From Nitrospirales bacterium (GTDB lineage: Bacteria; Nitrospirota; Nitrospiria; Nitrospirales; UBA8639): 64,000 nt of DNA. Positions within the stretch are counted from its first letter, which is position 1. Each line of letters begins with the position of its first letter. A program made the translations under genes and the position numbers. The DNA lies in NCBI GenBank assembly GCA_029261355.1, contig JAJDBM010000061.1, positions 186,001-250,000 of the forward strand, in the 5' to 3' direction. The notes under the pieces were generated by a model. The model was not told the DNA's origin, searched no databases, and saw only the letters and a program-made list of their open reading frames with translations. Below, piece by piece: positions 5,534-61,575 of the stretch.

Positions 5534-6115
5534 ATGTTTTCAGCTCTTTTAGAAAAAAAATACCCACTGTTAAGTTTTGGCATCGTGATACTCATTGCCA
5601 TTTTCCTACCAGACGGGACGAACAATACCGCGGCATTTTCGTCATCCTCTCTCCTTACTGAATATTCGAGCCCTGGTACATTGAACGCACAACACGTAAC
5701 AGGAACCCCAGCCCCACTTTCTGATGAACATCTTGCGGCCTTAACCATTTATTTAGAAGCGCGGGGAGAAAGTTTTGCTGGAAAAATGGCCGTGGCCGCA
5801 GTGATTCGGAATAGAATGGAGGCCCAATATCAAAGTGATGGATCGGTCAAAGGGACCGTCTTGAAGCGTTTCCAGTTTCAACCGTGGAATCAGGCGAAAC
5901 CTGAAGATGTGCGGTTCACTATTAGCCCATCACGAATGCGTGACAGTCTTCTTGCCTGGAAAATGGTACAGGATGGACGGGAAGTCGTCCAGGGTGCTCT
6001 CTTGTTCTATAATCCTCGATTGGTCGAGGCTCCTCGATGGGCGACCGTTAGCCACAAAGTCGCTTCAATTGGCGGGCATGAATTCTTTGTCCCTCCTGGA
6101 AGACAGCAAGTCTAA
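5534..6115 (+). CDS. SleB/CwlJ-type cell wall hydrolase
   Basis: 193 residues. An N-terminal membrane or signal segment (about 9-27) anchors or exports the protein. The rest is a hydrolase_2 domain: LTIYLEARGES with the catalytic Glu of the SleB lytic-transglycosylase family, followed by GKMAVAAVIRNRM and a second conserved block near FQFQPWN. It should cut peptidoglycan glycan strands in the periplasm. Homologues in non-sporing Gram-negatives are wall-remodelling enzymes, not germination enzymes. It converges with the sigma gene, with only 10 bases between stop codons. Confidence 0.85.
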   Translation: MFSALLEKKYPLLSFGIVILIAIFLPDGTNNTAAFSSSSLLTEYSSPGTLNAQHVTGTPAPLSDEHLAALTIYLEARGESFAGKMAVAAVIRNRMEAQYQSDGSVKGTVLKRFQFQPWNQAKPEDVRFTISPSRMRDSLLAWKMVQDGREVVQGALLFYNPRLVEAPRWATVSHKVASIGGHEFFVPPGRQQV

Positions 6116-6125
6116 GTCTTTCGAC

Positions 6126-7007
6126 TTATGATAGCGGATTTGGAGAATCAACAGAATGACGCTTTGCGCTCAAACGTTTTCCCTTGACGTTCTGGGGCTT
6201 GATTTTAGAAGGCTGAGCAACATCAATCTCCAGTAAGGCGACTTGCAACTTTCGTAAAATCTCAGCATGTATTCGGCAAACGCCTGACTCCGTTAAGCTA
6301 AGGGTTTGGCCGATTTCCTTCATTGTTAACCCCTGAAAATAATATTGGTGCATGACATCTTGTTGCCGACCTGATAAATGCGTGATGGCCATTTCAAGCG
6401 CTTGATTAGTTTCTGAGGAGACACACAGCGCATATGGGTCTAGCTGTTCTTCATCGGGAAGCACGTCCTTGAGCGTATAGCCTTCATCGTGAGTTCCCAT
6501 TGGGTCGTCAAGACTCAACATCCTCGTATCGTATGCAGATGATGCATCTAACTCTTCCTGGGTAAGCCCGAGCAACTCTGCAATTTCATGTCGTGCAGGA
6601 GGTCTCCCTTCCCTTCGCACAAACGCGGCACTCGCCTGGTAAATTTGATCCTTCCTGGCACGAACTGAACGCGGGATCCAATCCATCGCGCGCATTTCAT
6701 CAAGCATCATTCCTCGAATTCGATATTCAGCAAACGTCCGAAACTTTATGGCTCTCTCAGAATCAAATCGAGCTAGAGCCCCTAACAAACCAATTATCCC
6801 AACACTCGTCAGATCTTCTGCGTCCAGAGATGAAGGATTCCTAAACGCTAATCCTCGGGCAATCCGACGGATCAGGGGAAGGAACTCTCGAACAACTTCA
6901 CTAGGATCCTGAGGCAGCCGTGGAGAAGTGGTCTCAGATCCATCACTAGAAGCCTCTGATTCATGTATACAATCTGGCAAAAAATGTGATTTCATTGACT
7001 CATCCAT
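6126..7007 (-). CDS. fliA: FliA/WhiG-family RNA polymerase sigma factor
   Basis: 293 residues. After an acidic unstructured N-terminus (about 1-40), sigma region 2 includes DAEDLTSVGIIGLLGALARF and the hallmark MLDEMRAMDWIPRSVR of the sigma-28 class. Region 3 (EIAELLGLTQEEL) and a region 4 helix-turn-helix (LTMKEIGQTLSLTESGVCRIH) follow. Sigma-28 factors direct flagellar and chemotaxis late genes. No flagellar gene is nearby, so the regulon is not shown here. The C-terminal basic tail (KIKPQNVKGKRLSAKRHS) is longer than usual. The c-di-GMP riboswitch and terminator just upstream imply control by c-di-GMP. Confidence 0.92.
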   Translation of the reverse strand: MDESMKSHFLPDCIHESEASSDGSETTSPRLPQDPSEVVREFLPLIRRIARGLAFRNPSSLDAEDLTSVGIIGLLGALARFDSERAIKFRTFAEYRIRGMMLDEMRAMDWIPRSVRARKDQIYQASAAFVRREGRPPARHEIAELLGLTQEELDASSAYDTRMLSLDDPMGTHDEGYTLKDVLPDEEQLDPYALCVSSETNQALEMAITHLSGRQQDVMHQYYFQGLTMKEIGQTLSLTESGVCRIHAEILRKLQVALLEIDVAQPSKIKPQNVKGKRLSAKRHSVDSPNPLS

Positions 7008-7066
7008 CTTAAAAATTCCTGTCCCTCATTCGCGACTCTCCACATCAATACCCTAAGAAATACGGC

Positions 7067-7104
7067 TAAAAAAAAAGCGCCCATCCAGAAGGAAGAGCGC
7101 TTTA
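7067..7104 (-). terminator. Intrinsic terminator, expression platform of the riboswitch
   Basis: On the minus strand AAAGCGC and GCGCTTT close a stem of about 13 pairs with one mismatch and a TTCT loop, followed directly by a run of nine T's. It lies 26 bases after the c-di-GMP aptamer and 60 bases before the sigma-factor ATG. It is therefore placed to decide read-through into the gene. Confidence 0.88.
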
Positions 7105-7129
7105 CACAACAGCACACATCATCTTCTCT

Positions 7130-7227
7130 CCAGTGCGGCAACCAGACGAACCTACCGGAACACTCGGTCCCTCTAGGTTTCTTGGCTTTGCGTCCTATCC
7201 TCACGGATAGTTTGCGTTTGTCACCTG
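7130..7227 (-). promoter_or_regulatory. Cyclic di-GMP-I (GEMM-I) riboswitch
   Basis: Read on the minus strand, the sequence shows the GEMM-I landmarks in order. GCAAAC is followed by a stem capped by a GUGA tetraloop (CUAUCC/GGAUAG) and then the near-invariant GGACGCAAAGCC. Next comes CCUA pairing into the second stem, ending in CCGGUAGGU, and a closing GGUUGCCG. This aligns base for base with the core of the Vibrio cholerae Vc2 aptamer. It lies in the leader of the FliA-type sigma gene with a terminator between. The sign of regulation (on or off with ligand) cannot be read by eye. Confidence 0.93.
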
Positions 7228-7522
7228 TTCGTCGTTACATCATCTCACAGTCTTTCACTACCTCCCTGATACAGACTCACCAGTCTTCTTATCGGAACAA
7301 TCGTGTATGGAGTTGAGGCTTATCCTCACTCAACAACCAGCCAGAAGATGCCTCAAATACATCATGGCCAACGAACTCAATAGAATTGAACACAAATAGG
7401 TCACATGGAAATTGTGTTTAGGTAAAAATATTACAAGGAGTATTGAGTGGAGTCGAATTGAAGCGAAATAAGGTACAAAATACAGGCAGGAAGCCATTCA
7501 GATGGGGAACCTATTATGGTGA
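7228..7522. other. Region upstream of the riboswitch
   Basis: Between the aptamer and the end of lptG. It must contain the promoter for the sigma-factor transcript, but I see no convincing -35/-10 pair on the minus strand and no gene. Confidence 0.4.
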
Positions 7523-8611
7523 TCAACGAATTTTCAAAAATAGATTTAACCCAACAACAAAAAACATCGCACTCGCAAACCACCCAGCGGCTATTGGGAG
7601 CAACGCACCATTTCTCCCCAACACCACTCCAAATGAATGTGTCACCCAAAATAAAAACCCAATGCCTAATGCTTGTCCAATACCTTTTGCGACAGCATGC
7701 CCTCTTCCGCCTGATCCGAATAAACCGATTGCCATCCCCACAATCGTCATGACAAACGTCATCGTTGAAAAAGCCATTCGCCCCCAATAATCAGTGGCAA
7801 AACGGCTACTACTATGTCCATCACGTGTCAATCGTTGAATATATGCATCCAATTGATGAAAAGTCATATTTTTCGAATCCAACGATAACCAGGTTTGAAA
7901 ATCTTCGGGGGTAAGTGGGAGTCCAATGAGCAACTCTGAGTATCGGTCAGCCATAACACGACCATCGGGTTCAACCAACCGCTGAGTTGCCTCTTTCAAA
8001 GTCCATCCCTCTGACCTGTATAGGGCTTCTGGAGATTCAATAATCTCACGAAGTTGAAACTGCTCATTCATCCGGTAAAGTTTGATCGAGCTGAGACGAG
8101 ACCCATTGTCTTTGACTGAACCAATTTTAAGTAAACCATCTTGTCCTAACCGCAGCCACACCCGATCTGGAGTAACGGAAAGAGCAGCAGGCTTTTTTTC
8201 AATCAGAACGGTTCTCACATACTCGGCATGAATGTTGGCCAGAGGCACGAAGACTGCGGTAAAACTAAACAGGATTGCACTCACAATAATCCCAAATCCA
8301 ACAAACGGTGAGGCAATCTGATAAAAGCTCACACCACAGCTCCGCATCGCCGTGATTTCTTGATTTTTATTCATGGCTCCAATCGTCAAGAGGGTGCCCA
8401 TCAAGGCCGCTAATGGGGTAATTTGAAAACTAATATCTGGGATACGGTAGAAGAAAAATGCGAGCATGGCAGACAAGTCAGCATCGTATTTTAAAAATTT
8501 TCGAAGTTTTTCGAAAAAGTCGACCACCAAATAGACCGTCAATAACGCACTTAAGCACATCAGGAAAACCTTGGCATATTGACGAAATATGTACCAGAAC
8601 AATAACCCCAT
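7523..8611 (-). CDS. lptG: LPS export permease, LptG-like
   Basis: YjgP/YjgQ-family inner-membrane subunit of the Lpt ABC exporter, which extracts LPS and feeds it to the periplasmic bridge. 362 residues: three N-terminal membrane spans, with the family motif ELTAMRS-like (NQEITAMRSCGVS), a periplasmic beta-jellyroll middle, and three C-terminal spans. It starts one base after the lptF stop codon (TAA-C-ATG), so the pair is translationally coupled. LptF and LptG are hard to tell apart by sequence; the order follows the usual lptF-lptG arrangement. Confidence 0.88.
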   Translation of the reverse strand: MGLLFWYIFRQYAKVFLMCLSALLTVYLVVDFFEKLRKFLKYDADLSAMLAFFFYRIPDISFQITPLAALMGTLLTIGAMNKNQEITAMRSCGVSFYQIASPFVGFGIIVSAILFSFTAVFVPLANIHAEYVRTVLIEKKPAALSVTPDRVWLRLGQDGLLKIGSVKDNGSRLSSIKLYRMNEQFQLREIIESPEALYRSEGWTLKEATQRLVEPDGRVMADRYSELLIGLPLTPEDFQTWLSLDSKNMTFHQLDAYIQRLTRDGHSSSRFATDYWGRMAFSTMTFVMTIVGMAIGLFGSGGRGHAVAKGIGQALGIGFLFWVTHSFGVVLGRNGALLPIAAGWFASAMFFVVGLNLFLKIR

Positions 8612-10923: not shown

Positions 10924-13875
10924 ATGAGCGATTGGATGCGTAAAAATCGACAAGCAAACACCTACTCCTTCCACCAAAATATTTTCATCGAAGGGCAAGA
11001 GGAAGAATGGGGAGGCGGTACCACCAACGATCAATTACCCCCTCCGCCTGAAAATGTCAAAGCAAAACCAGACAACGGCCGTATTACCATCTCATGGGAA
11101 CCCGTCCCTGAGGCGCTCTACTACAATCTCCATTTCATGACAACTAAAGGCGTTTCGATAAAACCAAATGAATTACATCGACCAATTGCAAGTGCTGAAG
11201 ATTTCAATCCAATAATCGGGGTCACGGTAGAAAAAGCCAATTGTATCGAAGGGGCTAGTAGCCCCTATATTCACGACGATTTATCAAATAACTTATGCTA
11301 CCACTATGTTGTAACAGCCATCACAGCTGACGGAGAAAGTCCAGTGTCCGAGGAAGTGATGTCTATCCCTTCACCATACCTAAATGTCATGCATTTTGGG
11401 GTAGAAGGCATGGATGACGGTGAATTCAATTCACCCACGGGAATTGCCGTGGACAAAACTGGCAATATTTACGTCGCTGACACAGATAATCATTCCATTC
11501 AAAAATTTGATAAGGCTGGAACGTTTATTTCACGGTGGGGGGATGATCCAGATTCTGAAGAAGGCAAGTTTTATTACCCAAGAGGACTCGCAACCTCACC
11601 GGATGGGGTCATCTACATTGCTGACAGCGGGAATAACCGAGTACAAAAATTTGACTTAGACGGCAACTTGATCAATGCATGGGGAAAGTTTGGCTTTGCA
11701 TGGCGTGGTGCTGAAGCGGGAAAGTTTGATGTTCCATGGGGCGTCGCGACCGATCAACAAGGATTCCTCTATGTTTCAGACACAAGTAATGCCAGGATCC
11801 AAAAATTCCAAGCAGATGGAACCCCTCTTCTGAAATGGGGACGAGATGGCGGTTACGACGGGGCCATGTTCTATCCACGAGGCGTCGCCGTCGATTTCGT
11901 TGGAAATATCTTCGTTGCGGATGAAGGCAACCATCGTATTCAAAAATTCGATGCTCGCGGGAACTACCTTCTGAAATGGGGAAAAGAAGGCAACGGATTA
12001 GGACAGTTTAAGTCTCCTTGGGGTGTGGCTACTGACGCACTCGGCAATGTGTACATTGTGGATAGTGGCAACCACCGAGTCCAAAAATTTGATACGAATG
12101 GTACATTTTTGTGCTCATGGGGAAATCGTGGACTCACAGAAGGGCAATTAAACTTCCCATCAGGAATCGCTGTTGACAATGAAGGTAATGTTTTTGTCAT
12201 TGACAGTGGAAATAATAGGCTCACAAAGTTTGCGCCAACTGAAGATGAACTCAAACGAGGTAGAGAGCAAGCTCAACCACGGGAACAAGCAGACCTTTCG
12301 ACTCCGACCAATATGACCGTTAAAGCTGGCGACACAGAAAGCATCATTAGTTGGCTTGATGTCCCAGGAGCGGTGAGCTACAACCTTTATTTCGCAGCTG
12401 ACACAGGAATTACCGTCAAAAATTCAACCAAGATCGAAGGAGTGACAAGTCCTTACACTCATCTTGGATTAACAAACTCCACCACATACTACTATGGCTT
12501 ATGTGCCGTTACCGAAGATGGAGCCGAAAGCCTTCTCTCTGAAGAATATTCAGTTACACCCACCCTCATCGATGTCACGGCCCCACAAAACCCAGATATT
12601 GTCTTGAACCATGGGGCCTACATGACAAACTCACCGGACCTTGTGGCCACGATATCCGCAAGAGATGTTGATAGTGGGGTCTCAGCTTATTTTATATCAG
12701 AGAACCCAATGACACCCAGTGCCACCATGCCTGGATGGGTCGACATTGAGCCAGAGGAACGGTTTGGGGCCACCATCCCATTTACCACTTCGGCTGGTGA
12801 TGGAACTAAAACTGCTTATGTCTGGTTTAAAGATGTCAATAACAATGTTTCAGTACCAGCCATTTCAAGCATCTTACTGAATACTTCTGGTTATGTATGT
12901 GTTGCAAATTGGGGCAAGCCTGGTCGAGGCGCATCACTTCTACACGGTGGGGAGTTCATTAGCCCTATTTATGGCATGACGATTGATCGACAGGGTTCCG
13001 TTTTTGTAGTCGATAATGGAAATAATCGTATTCAAAAATTTGAAAAAAATGGCAACTTCATTCTGCTCTGGGGTAACTTCGGTGGTTCGAATGGGAGTTT
13101 CAATAACCCTACAGGTATTGCATGTGATGCAAAGGGCGATATCTATGTTGCAGATACGAACAACCACCGCATTCAAAAGTTTGACGGAAAACTTGGCCAC
13201 TATCTCATGAAATTTGGTTCACGAGGAAATGGAGAAGGACAACTGAACTCGCCTTGGGGAATCACAGTAGATAGAGTACGCGGCTACATTTATGTTGTAG
13301 ACAGTGCAAATTTCAGAATTCAAAAATTTGATGAAACTGGTGAATTCATTATGCAGTGGGGAAGCTTTGGGAATAATGATGGTCAGTTTTACTTTGCACG
13401 AGGCATTGCGGTCGACCAAACAGACGGTACCGTGTATGTCGTAGATATGGGAAATCACCGAATCCAAAAGTTTGACACAAGTACCAACGTCTTACCTCAA
13501 CTACTTGCTAAATGGGGCGGTGGAATTGGTGCAGGCCATGCCAGTAGTGCTCAGGCTCAAGAACCAGGACAATTCAGATCTCCTTGGGGAGTGTCAGTTG
13601 ACGAAGCTGGAGATGTCTATGTAAGTGATACAGGAAACCAACGGATCCAAAAGTTTGATAGCGAAGGGAACTTTGTGACTCAATGGGGTGGATTCGGAAA
13701 TGCACAAGGCCAGTTCAATTTCCCATATGGAATTTCATTGGATAACCGAGGCAGCGTTTTTGTTGTCGACAGTGGCAACATGCGAGTTCAGCAATTCATG
13801 CCGGCGGTTGATGCCGAAGAACAGTTGCAAGAAGAAGAAGCCGTAGGCCTCTTACCTGAGCATTCCGATCATTAA
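10924..13875 (+). CDS. Twin six-bladed NHL beta-propeller protein with FN3 domains
   Basis: 983 residues. A fibronectin-III-like domain (about 37-147) precedes six NHL repeats of ~48 residues (about 150-440; each with P-x-G-(I/V)-A-V-D, (I/V)-x-V-x-D-x-x-N-x-R-(I/V)-Q-K-F, WG). A second FN3 domain (about 457-545) and an Ig-like segment come next. A second set of six NHL repeats (about 660-965) follows, and then an acidic tail. Each set should fold as a beta-propeller used for protein, RNA or sugar binding. No signal peptide is visible although many bacterial relatives are extracellular, so the location is uncertain. An ATG with a GAGGG box at good spacing supports the start. No catalytic residues were recognised. 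Confidence 0.85.
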   Translation: MSDWMRKNRQANTYSFHQNIFIEGQEEEWGGGTTNDQLPPPPENVKAKPDNGRITISWEPVPEALYYNLHFMTTKGVSIKPNELHRPIASAEDFNPIIGVTVEKANCIEGASSPYIHDDLSNNLCYHYVVTAITADGESPVSEEVMSIPSPYLNVMHFGVEGMDDGEFNSPTGIAVDKTGNIYVADTDNHSIQKFDKAGTFISRWGDDPDSEEGKFYYPRGLATSPDGVIYIADSGNNRVQKFDLDGNLINAWGKFGFAWRGAEAGKFDVPWGVATDQQGFLYVSDTSNARIQKFQADGTPLLKWGRDGGYDGAMFYPRGVAVDFVGNIFVADEGNHRIQKFDARGNYLLKWGKEGNGLGQFKSPWGVATDALGNVYIVDSGNHRVQKFDTNGTFLCSWGNRGLTEGQLNFPSGIAVDNEGNVFVIDSGNNRLTKFAPTEDELKRGREQAQPREQADLSTPTNMTVKAGDTESIISWLDVPGAVSYNLYFAADTGITVKNSTKIEGVTSPYTHLGLTNSTTYYYGLCAVTEDGAESLLSEEYSVTPTLIDVTAPQNPDIVLNHGAYMTNSPDLVATISARDVDSGVSAYFISENPMTPSATMPGWVDIEPEERFGATIPFTTSAGDGTKTAYVWFKDVNNNVSVPAISSILLNTSGYVCVANWGKPGRGASLLHGGEFISPIYGMTIDRQGSVFVVDNGNNRIQKFEKNGNFILLWGNFGGSNGSFNNPTGIACDAKGDIYVADTNNHRIQKFDGKLGHYLMKFGSRGNGEGQLNSPWGITVDRVRGYIYVVDSANFRIQKFDETGEFIMQWGSFGNNDGQFYFARGIAVDQTDGTVYVVDMGNHRIQKFDTSTNVLPQLLAKWGGGIGAGHASSAQAQEPGQFRSPWGVSVDEAGDVYVSDTGNQRIQKFDSEGNFVTQWGGFGNAQGQFNFPYGISLDNRGSVFVVDSGNMRVQQFMPAVDAEEQLQEEEAVGLLPEHSDH

Positions 13876-54538: not shown

Positions 54539-55795
54539 TTAACGTAATTCAGCTAACATGGCTTTAACCTGAGGGTCTTTTAGCTTCTTAAGGGCAACAC
54601 CTTCTATCTGTCGTATGCGTTCACGAGTCACCGACATGCTACGTCCTACTTGCTCTAAGGTCCAAGCCTCTTCTTGCCCAATTCCAAAACGCAGACGAAC
54701 AACCTGTTGTTCCCGTGGAGTTAAAATTTCTAATATCCGTTCAAGTTCAGCAACCGTCCGTTTTTTATCAATTTCAACATCAGGAGAAATACCTTCATGG
54801 TCTGGGATCAGGTCTCCAAGATGGGTATCCCCATTCTCGGGTGTTGCATCTAATGAAATAGGCTCAAGAAAGGCCTGGATGGTTTCACGAACACGCTCCT
54901 GACTCAGTCCAAGCTCTGCACCAAGTTCTTCATAGCTTGGATCTCGATTCAACTGTTGAGATAACCGTTGGCTAGTTCGTAGGAGACGGTTCGAGGCTTC
55001 AGTCGTATGAACCGGCACACGAATTGTTCGAGATTGATCAGCGACAGCCCGAGTAATGCCCTGCCGAATCCACCAGGTGGCATACGTACTAAACTTAAAA
55101 CCACGTTGATAGTCAAACCGCTCGGCAGCCTTCATTAATCCAATATTGCCCTCTTGAACTAAATCAAGGAATCCAAGTCCACGATTCAGATACCGTTTCG
55201 CAATATCAACCACGAGCCGAAGATTTCGTTGTACAAGTTCATCTTTTGCTCGTTCAATTTCCTGTCGAGCAAACTGTATTTGAGGAAGAAGACGAACGAT
55301 CTCTTTTTCAATTTTCTGCCCTTCACGACCAGCGGTAGAACAAATCTCTTGAATAGTTGTTAATGACAGAATCACTTCATTAATAATTGGGGCAGAAAGA
55401 CCATTGAGCTCTAACACATGATTGAATCTTTCCATCATACTCGAAACCATTGGCATATCGCTCAAACGTTCAGCCAGTCGAATGGTTGTGCGTAACCCAT
55501 CACGAATGACGGTACTTCCATGGTATAACTGTTTGGCTAGCTGAAGTTCGGCATCAGGGTCCAGAAGTGGACGAGATCGAAAATCTCGGAAATACACGGT
55601 CTCCAGAGAAACGGAGCCCTCCCTGCTTGGTATGGGAAATTTATCAACGGCACTCATCTTTTTTGAAGTGGCCCTTTTCTGGCGATGTCCTTTTCCCACG
55701 ATGACTTCCTGCTTAACTTGTGCCTCATGACAACCGAAATTATTTTTCCGACGCTTGGAGGCAGTTGTTCTCGGTGATTGTTCTAGGACATTCAT
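54539..55795 (-). CDS. Group 2 sigma-70 factor (RpoS/RpoH-like)
   Basis: 418 residues. A ~60-residue basic N-terminus lacks region 1.1. Region 1.2 (LETVYFRDFRSRPLLDPDAELQLAK), region 2 ([34 protein letters not shown]), region 3, and a region 4 helix-turn-helix ([20 protein letters not shown]) are all intact. Shorter than the primary sigma at 59.8-61.6 kb. Most likely a general-stress or alternative housekeeping sigma. The assignment to RpoS is not certain. Confidence 0.92.
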   Translation of the reverse strand: MNVLEQSPRTTASKRRKNNFGCHEAQVKQEVIVGKGHRQKRATSKKMSAVDKFPIPSREGSVSLETVYFRDFRSRPLLDPDAELQLAKQLYHGSTVIRDGLRTTIRLAERLSDMPMVSSMMERFNHVLELNGLSAPIINEVILSLTTIQEICSTAGREGQKIEKEIVRLLPQIQFARQEIERAKDELVQRNLRLVVDIAKRYLNRGLGFLDLVQEGNIGLMKAAERFDYQRGFKFSTYATWWIRQGITRAVADQSRTIRVPVHTTEASNRLLRTSQRLSQQLNRDPSYEELGAELGLSQERVRETIQAFLEPISLDATPENGDTHLGDLIPDHEGISPDVEIDKKRTVAELERILEILTPREQQVVRLRFGIGQEEAWTLEQVGRSMSVTRERIRQIEGVALKKLKDPQVKAMLAELR

Positions 55796-59751: not shown

Positions 59752-61575
59752 TCAGATGTGTTCAACCAAACTACGAAGTTTGTGACTACAGCTTGGATGA
59801 CGAAGCTTTTTAAGAGCCTTCGCTTCAATTTGGCGAATTCGCTCTCGTGTGACATCAAAGTCTTGCCCAATTTCTTCTAAAGTATGATCAGTGCTATCAC
59901 CAATACCAAACCGTTTACGAATAACGGTCTCTTCCCGAGGAGTCAACACACCGAGAGCATTAGCGATCTGCCGCTGAAGATCATATCTATTCGCTGCATC
60001 CATGGGCGAGACAGCATTTTTATCTTCAATTAAGTCACCAAGTTGACTATCTTCCTTTTCTCCAATTGGGGTCTCAAGAGAGATAGTCCCTTTTGAAATA
60101 TCTAGCATCATGCGTACTTTCTCGGCCGTCAGACCCATGCGATTCGCAATTTCCTCTGGCGTTGGTTCTCGTCCAAGCTGCTGGACTAACTGCCTTGCCG
60201 TTCGTGCCAGCTTCGTATTGGCTTCAATCATATGAACCGGAATTCGAATGGTCCGTGCTTGATCGGCGATCGCGCGCGTCACTCCTTGCCGAATCCACCA
60301 TGTCGCATACGTACTAAACTTATAGCCTCGTTGATATTCAAATTTATCAACCGCACGCATCAGCCCAATATTACCCTCTTGAATAAGGTCAATAAATTGG
60401 AGTCCTCGATTAGTATACTTACGAGCGATACTGACAACGAGACGAAGATTGGCTTCAATGAGTTGAGCCTTTCCTCGCTTGACCTTTTCTTCGGCTCTTC
60501 CCAAGTTGGTCAGGGCATCTCGAAACTCACCAAGCGGGATCAAGACCATATCTTCTTGAATCTCTTTCAACCGATGTTTGGCTTCGGCAACGAGATCTTT
60601 AAGTTTGGTAACTTCCTCTGTACTGAGTGTAATTTTCCGTTTTCCTGCTCCCTTTGAGGTACTTGGGGAAGGTTGGGATGTACCTTGTTCCACATCTTGA
60701 CCAGCAAGCCCTAATCGTGTTGTGCACCGCCTAACCATTGACTCACAATCAAAAATCTCTCTGCCAATATCCTTGATTCGCTTCAGCATCTGATCGCGAA
60801 CTCGCTGATGTAAATTCAAAGATTCAATTTGATCAACAAATTGGTCACACACGGCCGTAATTCGCTTTTCTAGCTGACCATTATCCTTCGTCTTTGAAGC
60901 AGCAGCTTTCCGCTGATTTTCATACAGGCCTAAGAGTGTCTTCCCAAACCGTCGAATTGAGCTTAAAATTTCAAGGGTTCGCTGCTGTAGTTCCTCATCT
61001 TCCTGATCAGCGGGTTGTGGTTCCTCTTCTACATCATCCTCTTCTAAGGTATCTTGCAGAAGCACCAGGTCACGAACACGAATCTCCTGGTTTTTTAATT
61101 GTTCGTAGAGCGTTTCAAATTGTTGGATCGTTACCGGCATCCCAAACATGGCGCATGCGAGTTCACGCTTGCCTTCTTCAATTCTCTTCGCAAGATCAAT
61201 TTCCCCTTCACGAGTAAGAAGAGGGACTCTTCCCATTTCCTTTAAATAAAGACGAACAGGGTCATCGATACGAGTAGGTTCACCAGGAGTTAAATCGATA
61301 TCGGCGCCACTCGACTCGCTGTCATCTGAAGATTGTTCAGATTCATCACCTTCATTTGATGAAGACTGGCCAGTTGAACTCCCTGAATCCTTATTCGGGA
61401 CATCAATGACTTCAATATTCATCTCATTTAATGCTAATAAAACCATATGTAATTGATTCGATGACACTTTTTCAGGTGGCAACACCTGAGCAAGGTCTTT
61501 TTGGGTTAGATGACCCTTTTCTCTCGCAAGAGTAATCAGACCTTGAACATCACCGGCTAGCTTTTCTTTGGTCAT
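59752..61575 (-). CDS. rpoD: Primary RNA polymerase sigma factor RpoD
   Basis: About 607 residues from [11 protein letters not shown] with GGGGTG ahead, where the upstream in-frame TTG is unlikely. Region 1.1 (about 10-60), region 1.2 ([29 protein letters not shown]), a long non-conserved acidic insert, region 2 ([34 protein letters not shown]), region 3 and region 4 ([20 protein letters not shown]). The housekeeping sigma factor. Strong terminator behind it. Confidence 0.97.

Follow-up and report, generated by a model that had tools for sequence, protein, structure and literature searches.

A c-di-GMP-I riboswitch in front of sigma-2, a second FliA/WhiG-family sigma factor gene of a Nitrospirales family

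In Streptomyces, the FliA/WhiG-family sigma factor WhiG is controlled by an anti-sigma protein that depends on c-di-GMP. A riboswitch that puts a sigma-28 gene under c-di-GMP control is established in C. difficile, where the class I riboswitch Cd1 controls the flgB operon including sigD (PMC6366702). In Cd1, an OFF switch, aptamer and terminator coexist, whereas in the ON switch pilM they are mutually exclusive (PMC9262584). In Bdellovibrio, FliA is a broad nonflagellar regulator with the promoter TTAAG-N16-CCGATA (PMC3627812).

The locus described here belongs to a Nitrospirales bacterium (UBA8639; assembly GCA_029261355.1, genome code G000, 4.63 Mb) and lies in positions 186,001–250,000 of contig JAJDBM010000061.1; this whole 64-kb stretch is referred to as the window. 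We consider it moderately probable that this region controls a second sigma-28 system, in which c-di-GMP switches the sigma factor, sigma-2, OFF. A preliminary description had placed a c-di-GMP-I riboswitch with a terminator at 7067–7227, on the minus strand, in front of a FliA-type sigma factor gene, and these coordinates agree with the features in Table 1 to within a base or two. A cmscan search of the whole window bore out the aptamer, returning the full RF01051 model (positions 1–87) with 55.8 bits (gathering cut-off 35; E = 3.4e-8) as the sole riboswitch. The terminator, 30 bases downstream of the aptamer, consists of a 9-bp stem and a 3-bp inner stem followed by a U run, with a fold energy of −18.1 kcal/mol and a shuffle z-score of −4.5. 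It was missed by a simple terminator scan, probably owing to its internal bulge, and the fold is therefore taken as the evidence for it. A search of 6000–7600 on both strands gave no sigma-70-like promoter. The sigma-2 gene is solitary, with lptF-lptG upstream and a convergent gene for a SleB-like hydrolase downstream. Two more sigma-70-family genes are present on the minus strand of the window (54578–55180 and 59797–60408, in frames of 422 and 619 aa). A 983-aa NHL-repeat protein (10924–13875) was above the cut-off (375 bits) for NCBIfam ScyF, a scytonemin-cluster PEP-CTERM protein, a match that is probably repeat-driven.

Table 1. Features of the sigma-2 control region, in window coordinates.
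Feature	Position	Strand	Evidence
c-di-GMP-I riboswitch aptamer (RF01051)	7134..7226	-	cmscan; kept before orthologous genes
Intrinsic terminator	7068..7103	-	Stem 7103-7074, U run 7076-7068; fold energy and conserved stem
sigma-2, second FliA/WhiG-family sigma factor, 293 aa	6126..7007	-	TIGR02479 match; own clade; altered region 4.2
Putative sigma-28-type promoter of sigma-2, TCAACTC-N14-CCGATAA	7289..7316	-	Genome-unique motif; same place in eight relatives
G20 ligand-contacting position (Vc2 numbering; model position 11), C here	7216	-	cmscan alignment, 85-riboswitch comparison
J2/3 strand GGACGC, proposed antiterminator strand within aptamer	7190..7195	-	Complementarity to terminator 5' arm

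Sigma-2 is a paralogue that occurs in a single Nitrospirales family and is not the flagellar sigma-28 gene, a point on which the preliminary description needs correction. Sigma-2 scored 198.8 bits with TIGR02479 (FliA_WhiG; cut-off 189.6) and 179.1 bits with the FliA-specific NF005413, below its cut-off of 201. The canonical fliA of the same genome (G000:C12) exceeded both models, with 263.0 and 248.7 bits, respectively, and sits in an flhB-flhA-flhF-flhG-fliA cluster (gene names read from translations), near which no RF01051 match was found; sigma-2 is located outside the flagellar gene cluster. In a tree built with a quick method, in which long branches were flagged, the sigma-2 orthologues formed one clade (30 rows, SH-aLRT 100) beside the family's canonical FliA. 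The region reading the −10 element is conserved in sigma-2, and the −35 recognition helix (region 4.2) reads TESG[VI]CR[VI]H in every helix-intact sigma-2 and TESR..Q[LI]H in FliA. The best sequence match to sigma-2 in the PDB was 6pfv, which, like 6pfj, is a structure of Streptomyces WhiG-RsiG-(c-di-GMP).

Two FlgM genes were present in eight of the nine genomes searched, the exception being G010, which has one. This genome (99% complete) has sigma-2, and neither a canonical fliA nor flagellin or FlhA was found in it. Because the flagella-less and fliA-less G010 keeps sigma-2 together with one FlgM, and because the second FlgM gene and sigma-2 lie 6 kb apart in G008, a pairing of the two is suggested, the second FlgM probably being the partner of sigma-2. 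The second FlgM gene adjoins a gene for a YcgR-type PilZN-domain protein in the window genome (L294:2730-4015, G000:C44) and in G008 (L297:7542-8724), the domain being above the cut-off in G008 only; a DAHP synthase-like gene is close by.

The riboswitch lies directly upstream of sigma-2 in 20 of the 22 sigma-2-bearing genomes of the family, in six genera. In G035 the contig edge was reached before the riboswitch site, which leaves 21 relatives that can be assessed; 20 of these keep aptamer, terminator and sigma factor gene together in the one-strand order given in the preliminary description. No riboswitch was found upstream of sigma-2 in G008, where the switch has been lost and sigma-2 kept. 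Nine additional GTDB MAGs also have a riboswitch before sigma-2. The genomes compared are mostly MAGs, and the named relatives are Nitrospirota, labelled mostly Nitrospirales or Nitrospirae. Within the family, 22 genomes contain both sigma-2 and c-di-GMP riboswitches, 14 contain neither, and one (G018, 64% complete) contains riboswitches but no detected sigma-2; the corresponding Fisher value of 2.5e-9 is only descriptive, because the genomes are related.

The flagellin leaders of this genus carry a −35/−10 pair of the type TCAAGT-N-TCCGATA, and the same pair was observed before riboswitches. A search with GCCGATA in a strict sigma-28 pattern of the E. coli type had only one match, and flagellin and riboswitch leaders were therefore used to derive the motif anew. 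Within 250 nt upstream, 28 of the 85 riboswitches of the family have a perfect T[CA]AAG-N15-CCGATA, and 45 of the 85 had a score of at least 10 of 11. The same search yielded 0 downstream and 0.05 per 85 in shuffles, and the finding rests on these controls and not on the raw counts, because the motif was derived partly from the same riboswitch leaders. Across the window genome the strict sigma-28 pattern occurred at 10 sites, vs. 8 in the reversed control; four of the 10 were located at most 150 nt upstream of one of the genome's six riboswitches, and one at flagellin. Elsewhere, the motif preceded five of the 10 riboswitches scored in family f3 and one of five in f30, occurred once, in relaxed form, in f8, and was otherwise absent from the loci scored. 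Coupling of promoter and riboswitch was thus strong in two families, f1 and f3, and almost never seen at the loci scored in others (14 were not scorable by pattern).

Compared with a TAAAG-type −35 and a GCCGATAA-type −10, the putative promoter of sigma-2 has an exact −10 (CCGATAA) and TCAACTC as −35. The pattern YAAYTC-N14-CCGATAA has this single site, at 7315-7289, in the 4.63-Mb genome; its −35 (YAAYTC) deviates, and a good match is not present in every sigma-2 orthologue. The pattern also occurs in the flagellar region of G019 (L255:1593-1937), G001, G012, G021 and G033. A gene for a STAS-domain (anti-anti-sigma-like) protein lies downstream of the site in G019 and G001; for the other three the match is one of sequence and location only.

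In the consensus fold, aptamer and terminator are separate segments and both are formed, and the terminator stem is conserved among relatives with changes on both sides. The J2/3 strand of the aptamer (GGRCGC) is complementary to the 5' arm of the terminator in 136 of 138 cells (98.6%) over 23 orthologues, compared to 18–65% in slid controls. This alternative helix covaries, A for G in J2/3 being matched by U for C in the arm in four sequences, at one base pair (A-U/G-C) in one clade. In simulated folding of the nascent RNA, with the locked aptamer imposed by energy penalties, the terminator arm was paired upstream more often when the aptamer was free than when it was locked in most relatives; the window copy gave no free/locked difference. 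An antiterminator formed by the 3' strand of P1 was set aside, as it is not conserved, and so was a P3-mimic element (CGTTCGTTCATG), being found in some genera only.

Because terminator and aptamer coexist, the J2/3 alternative helix is conserved and nascent folding agrees in most relatives, OFF polarity is likely. Transcription of sigma-2 would start at the sigma-28-type promoter, read by sigma-2, FliA or both, and the leader would next fold the c-di-GMP-I aptamer. With ligand bound, the aptamer would keep J2/3, the terminator hairpin 30 nt downstream would form and transcription would stop; without ligand, J2/3 could pair with the 5' arm of the terminator and the polymerase would continue. 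High c-di-GMP would turn sigma-2 OFF. Sigma-2 itself would read promoters with a FliA-type −10 (CCGATAA) and would probably be held by the second FlgM. It would belong to a regulon with many genes (for pilus, secreted surface proteins and response regulators) that have a sigma-28 promoter and a c-di-GMP riboswitch of their own.

The copy in the window may depart from this scheme. Position 20 is a key ligand contact in the class I aptamer (PMC3764141), and the window aptamer, in which equivalents of A47, A48 and C92 are present, has C there and thus an incomplete G20/A47/A48/C92 contact set. G20 was found in 16 of the 18 orthologous aptamers scored before sigma-2; among the 85 family riboswitches, position 20 is mostly G, with nine A and four C (one of these a weak match). 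With most of the genomes being MAGs, a one-base difference might stem from faulty assembly, though C20 is not unique to the window copy and recurs in G003, G019 and, as the weak match, G006. The A20 variants, resembling cGAMP-type GEMM-Ib, comprise G010:C54:13781-13875 (before sigma-2) and eight other family riboswitches. No data on a C20 variant were found in the open-licence literature searched. By the covariance model, the window RNA is an RF01051 member with a variant pocket and a candidate c-di-GMP binder. The switch could nevertheless be degenerate or ligand-changed, acting as a constitutive attenuator or as one for another cyclic dinucleotide. Besides the C at the ligand-contacting position, this is favoured by the low micromolar range to which c-di-GMP affinity is reduced in G20U (PMC4686816), by the A/G exchange at position 20 that decides whether a Geobacter switch prefers cGAMP or c-di-GMP (PMC6456294), and by one A.C mismatch in the alternative helix, present at this pair in the window copy only. 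Since the remaining core positions and the terminator are all retained, and since the C20 riboswitches G003:C25 and G019:C1:2463565 have strong sigma-28 promoters, we regard this explanation as rather unlikely, and the window copy with its C20 may still work.

A different objection concerns the sign of control. Were the ligand to disfavour the terminator, c-di-GMP would induce sigma-2, in the manner of a sigma factor for attachment; the genome's other riboswitches head pilus and secreted surface-protein genes, which are expected to be c-di-GMP-induced, and pilM shows that ON switches are known in this class (PMC9262584). The mutually exclusive arrangement of pilM, however, is not that of the separate segments found here, which are able to coexist, and the conserved alternative helix requires an opened aptamer, so that ON polarity appears improbable. 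More doubtful still is that sigma-2 is a redundant fliA copy, a plain flagellar sigma factor with motility adjusted through its riboswitch, as is the case in C. difficile. Its membership in the FliA/WhiG family with a conserved −10 recognition region, and the motif shared by flagellin and riboswitch promoters, would agree with such a role; the retention of sigma-2 in G010 without flagellin, FlhA and fliA, the change in the −35 helix across the whole sigma-2 clade and the presence of a separate FlgM speak against it. A second sigma-28 system, probably switched OFF by c-di-GMP, is the reading we prefer.

One of the other riboswitches of the window genome heads a Flp/Tad pilus operon, in which five tandem Flp pilin-like genes and TadE/TadG-like genes were identified by sequence. 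Further targets are genes for a response regulator, a response regulator-kinase and a secreted protein that combines InlB-B-type repeats with a fibronectin domain; one uncertain target is near a glucose-6-phosphate dehydrogenase-like gene. At G000:C5:110500-115200 (L284), a sigma-28-type promoter and a c-di-GMP-I riboswitch together head the Flp/Tad genes. The genome encodes six GGDEF domains. The proposal that riboswitch control of the sigma factor places a whole regulon under a single RNA switch had to be given up, as the other riboswitches themselves sit on sigma-28-type promoters. The direct link between c-di-GMP and sigma-28 at the RNA level, also put forward in the preliminary description, was already known from Cd1 on the flgB operon with sigD (PMC6366702), and with C at G20, binding by the window copy is not assured. 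What had been observed was thus upheld and its interpretation in part; the promoter, the C at 7216 and the paralogue status were absent from that account.

With most riboswitches of the family lying behind sigma-28-type promoters, expression of attachment and signalling genes seems to depend on both controls together. Tentatively, we propose that a duplicated sigma-28/FlgM module has been split from the flagella in one Nitrospirales family, with riboswitches placed systematically behind sigma-28 promoters, that of the sigma gene included. The attachment genes would then form an AND gate (start by sigma-28, elongation by c-di-GMP), and an antiterminator inside the ligand-binding junction would give the sigma factor negative feedback. 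If this is true, a second messenger and an alternative sigma factor are wired together leader by leader, the sigma factor licensing a gene and c-di-GMP deciding on its elongation, and a nonflagellar sigma-28 attachment regulon is predicted in relatives of Nitrospira for which metagenomes are the main source. To a specialist, the surprise would be the conserved two-layer wiring. The orthologous leaders also provide a natural G20/A20/C20 pocket series for tests of ligand choice.

A limited search of the open-licence literature found no report of c-di-GMP riboswitches in Nitrospira, of a second fliA-like gene preceded by a riboswitch or of riboswitches placed systematically on sigma-28 promoters. 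As with Streptomyces WhiG-RsiG, a FliA/WhiG-family sigma factor is predicted here to be under c-di-GMP control, by an RNA leader instead of an anti-sigma protein. Bdellovibrio is similar in having a nonflagellar FliA regulon in a cell with abundant c-di-GMP riboswitch RNA (merRNA); unlike the riboswitches described here, merRNA has no downstream gene and is not listed as FliA-driven, and a riboswitch on a sigma gene is not reported, in the part of the source available (PMC3627812). The Geobacter GEMM-Ib cGAMP switches likewise form a riboswitch regulon of pili and surface genes, with A20 and cGAMP there vs. mostly G20 and some A20 variants here, and the available part of that article reports no sigma gene as a target (PMC6456294). 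A close parallel is C. difficile Cd1, which shares a class I aptamer and a terminator able to coexist and the lowering, by c-di-GMP at the RNA level, of a sigma-28-family factor, if OFF polarity holds here (PMC6366702, PMC9262584). Unlike Cd1, which heads a 23-kb early flagellar operon including sigD, the present switch precedes a stand-alone paralogue outside the flagellar cluster and follows a putative sigma-28-type promoter, and J2/3, not the aptamer-stabilising strand, is proposed to act as antiterminator. Against the literature searched, this version of such control, on a second paralogue, appears new, and it is conserved among the relatives.
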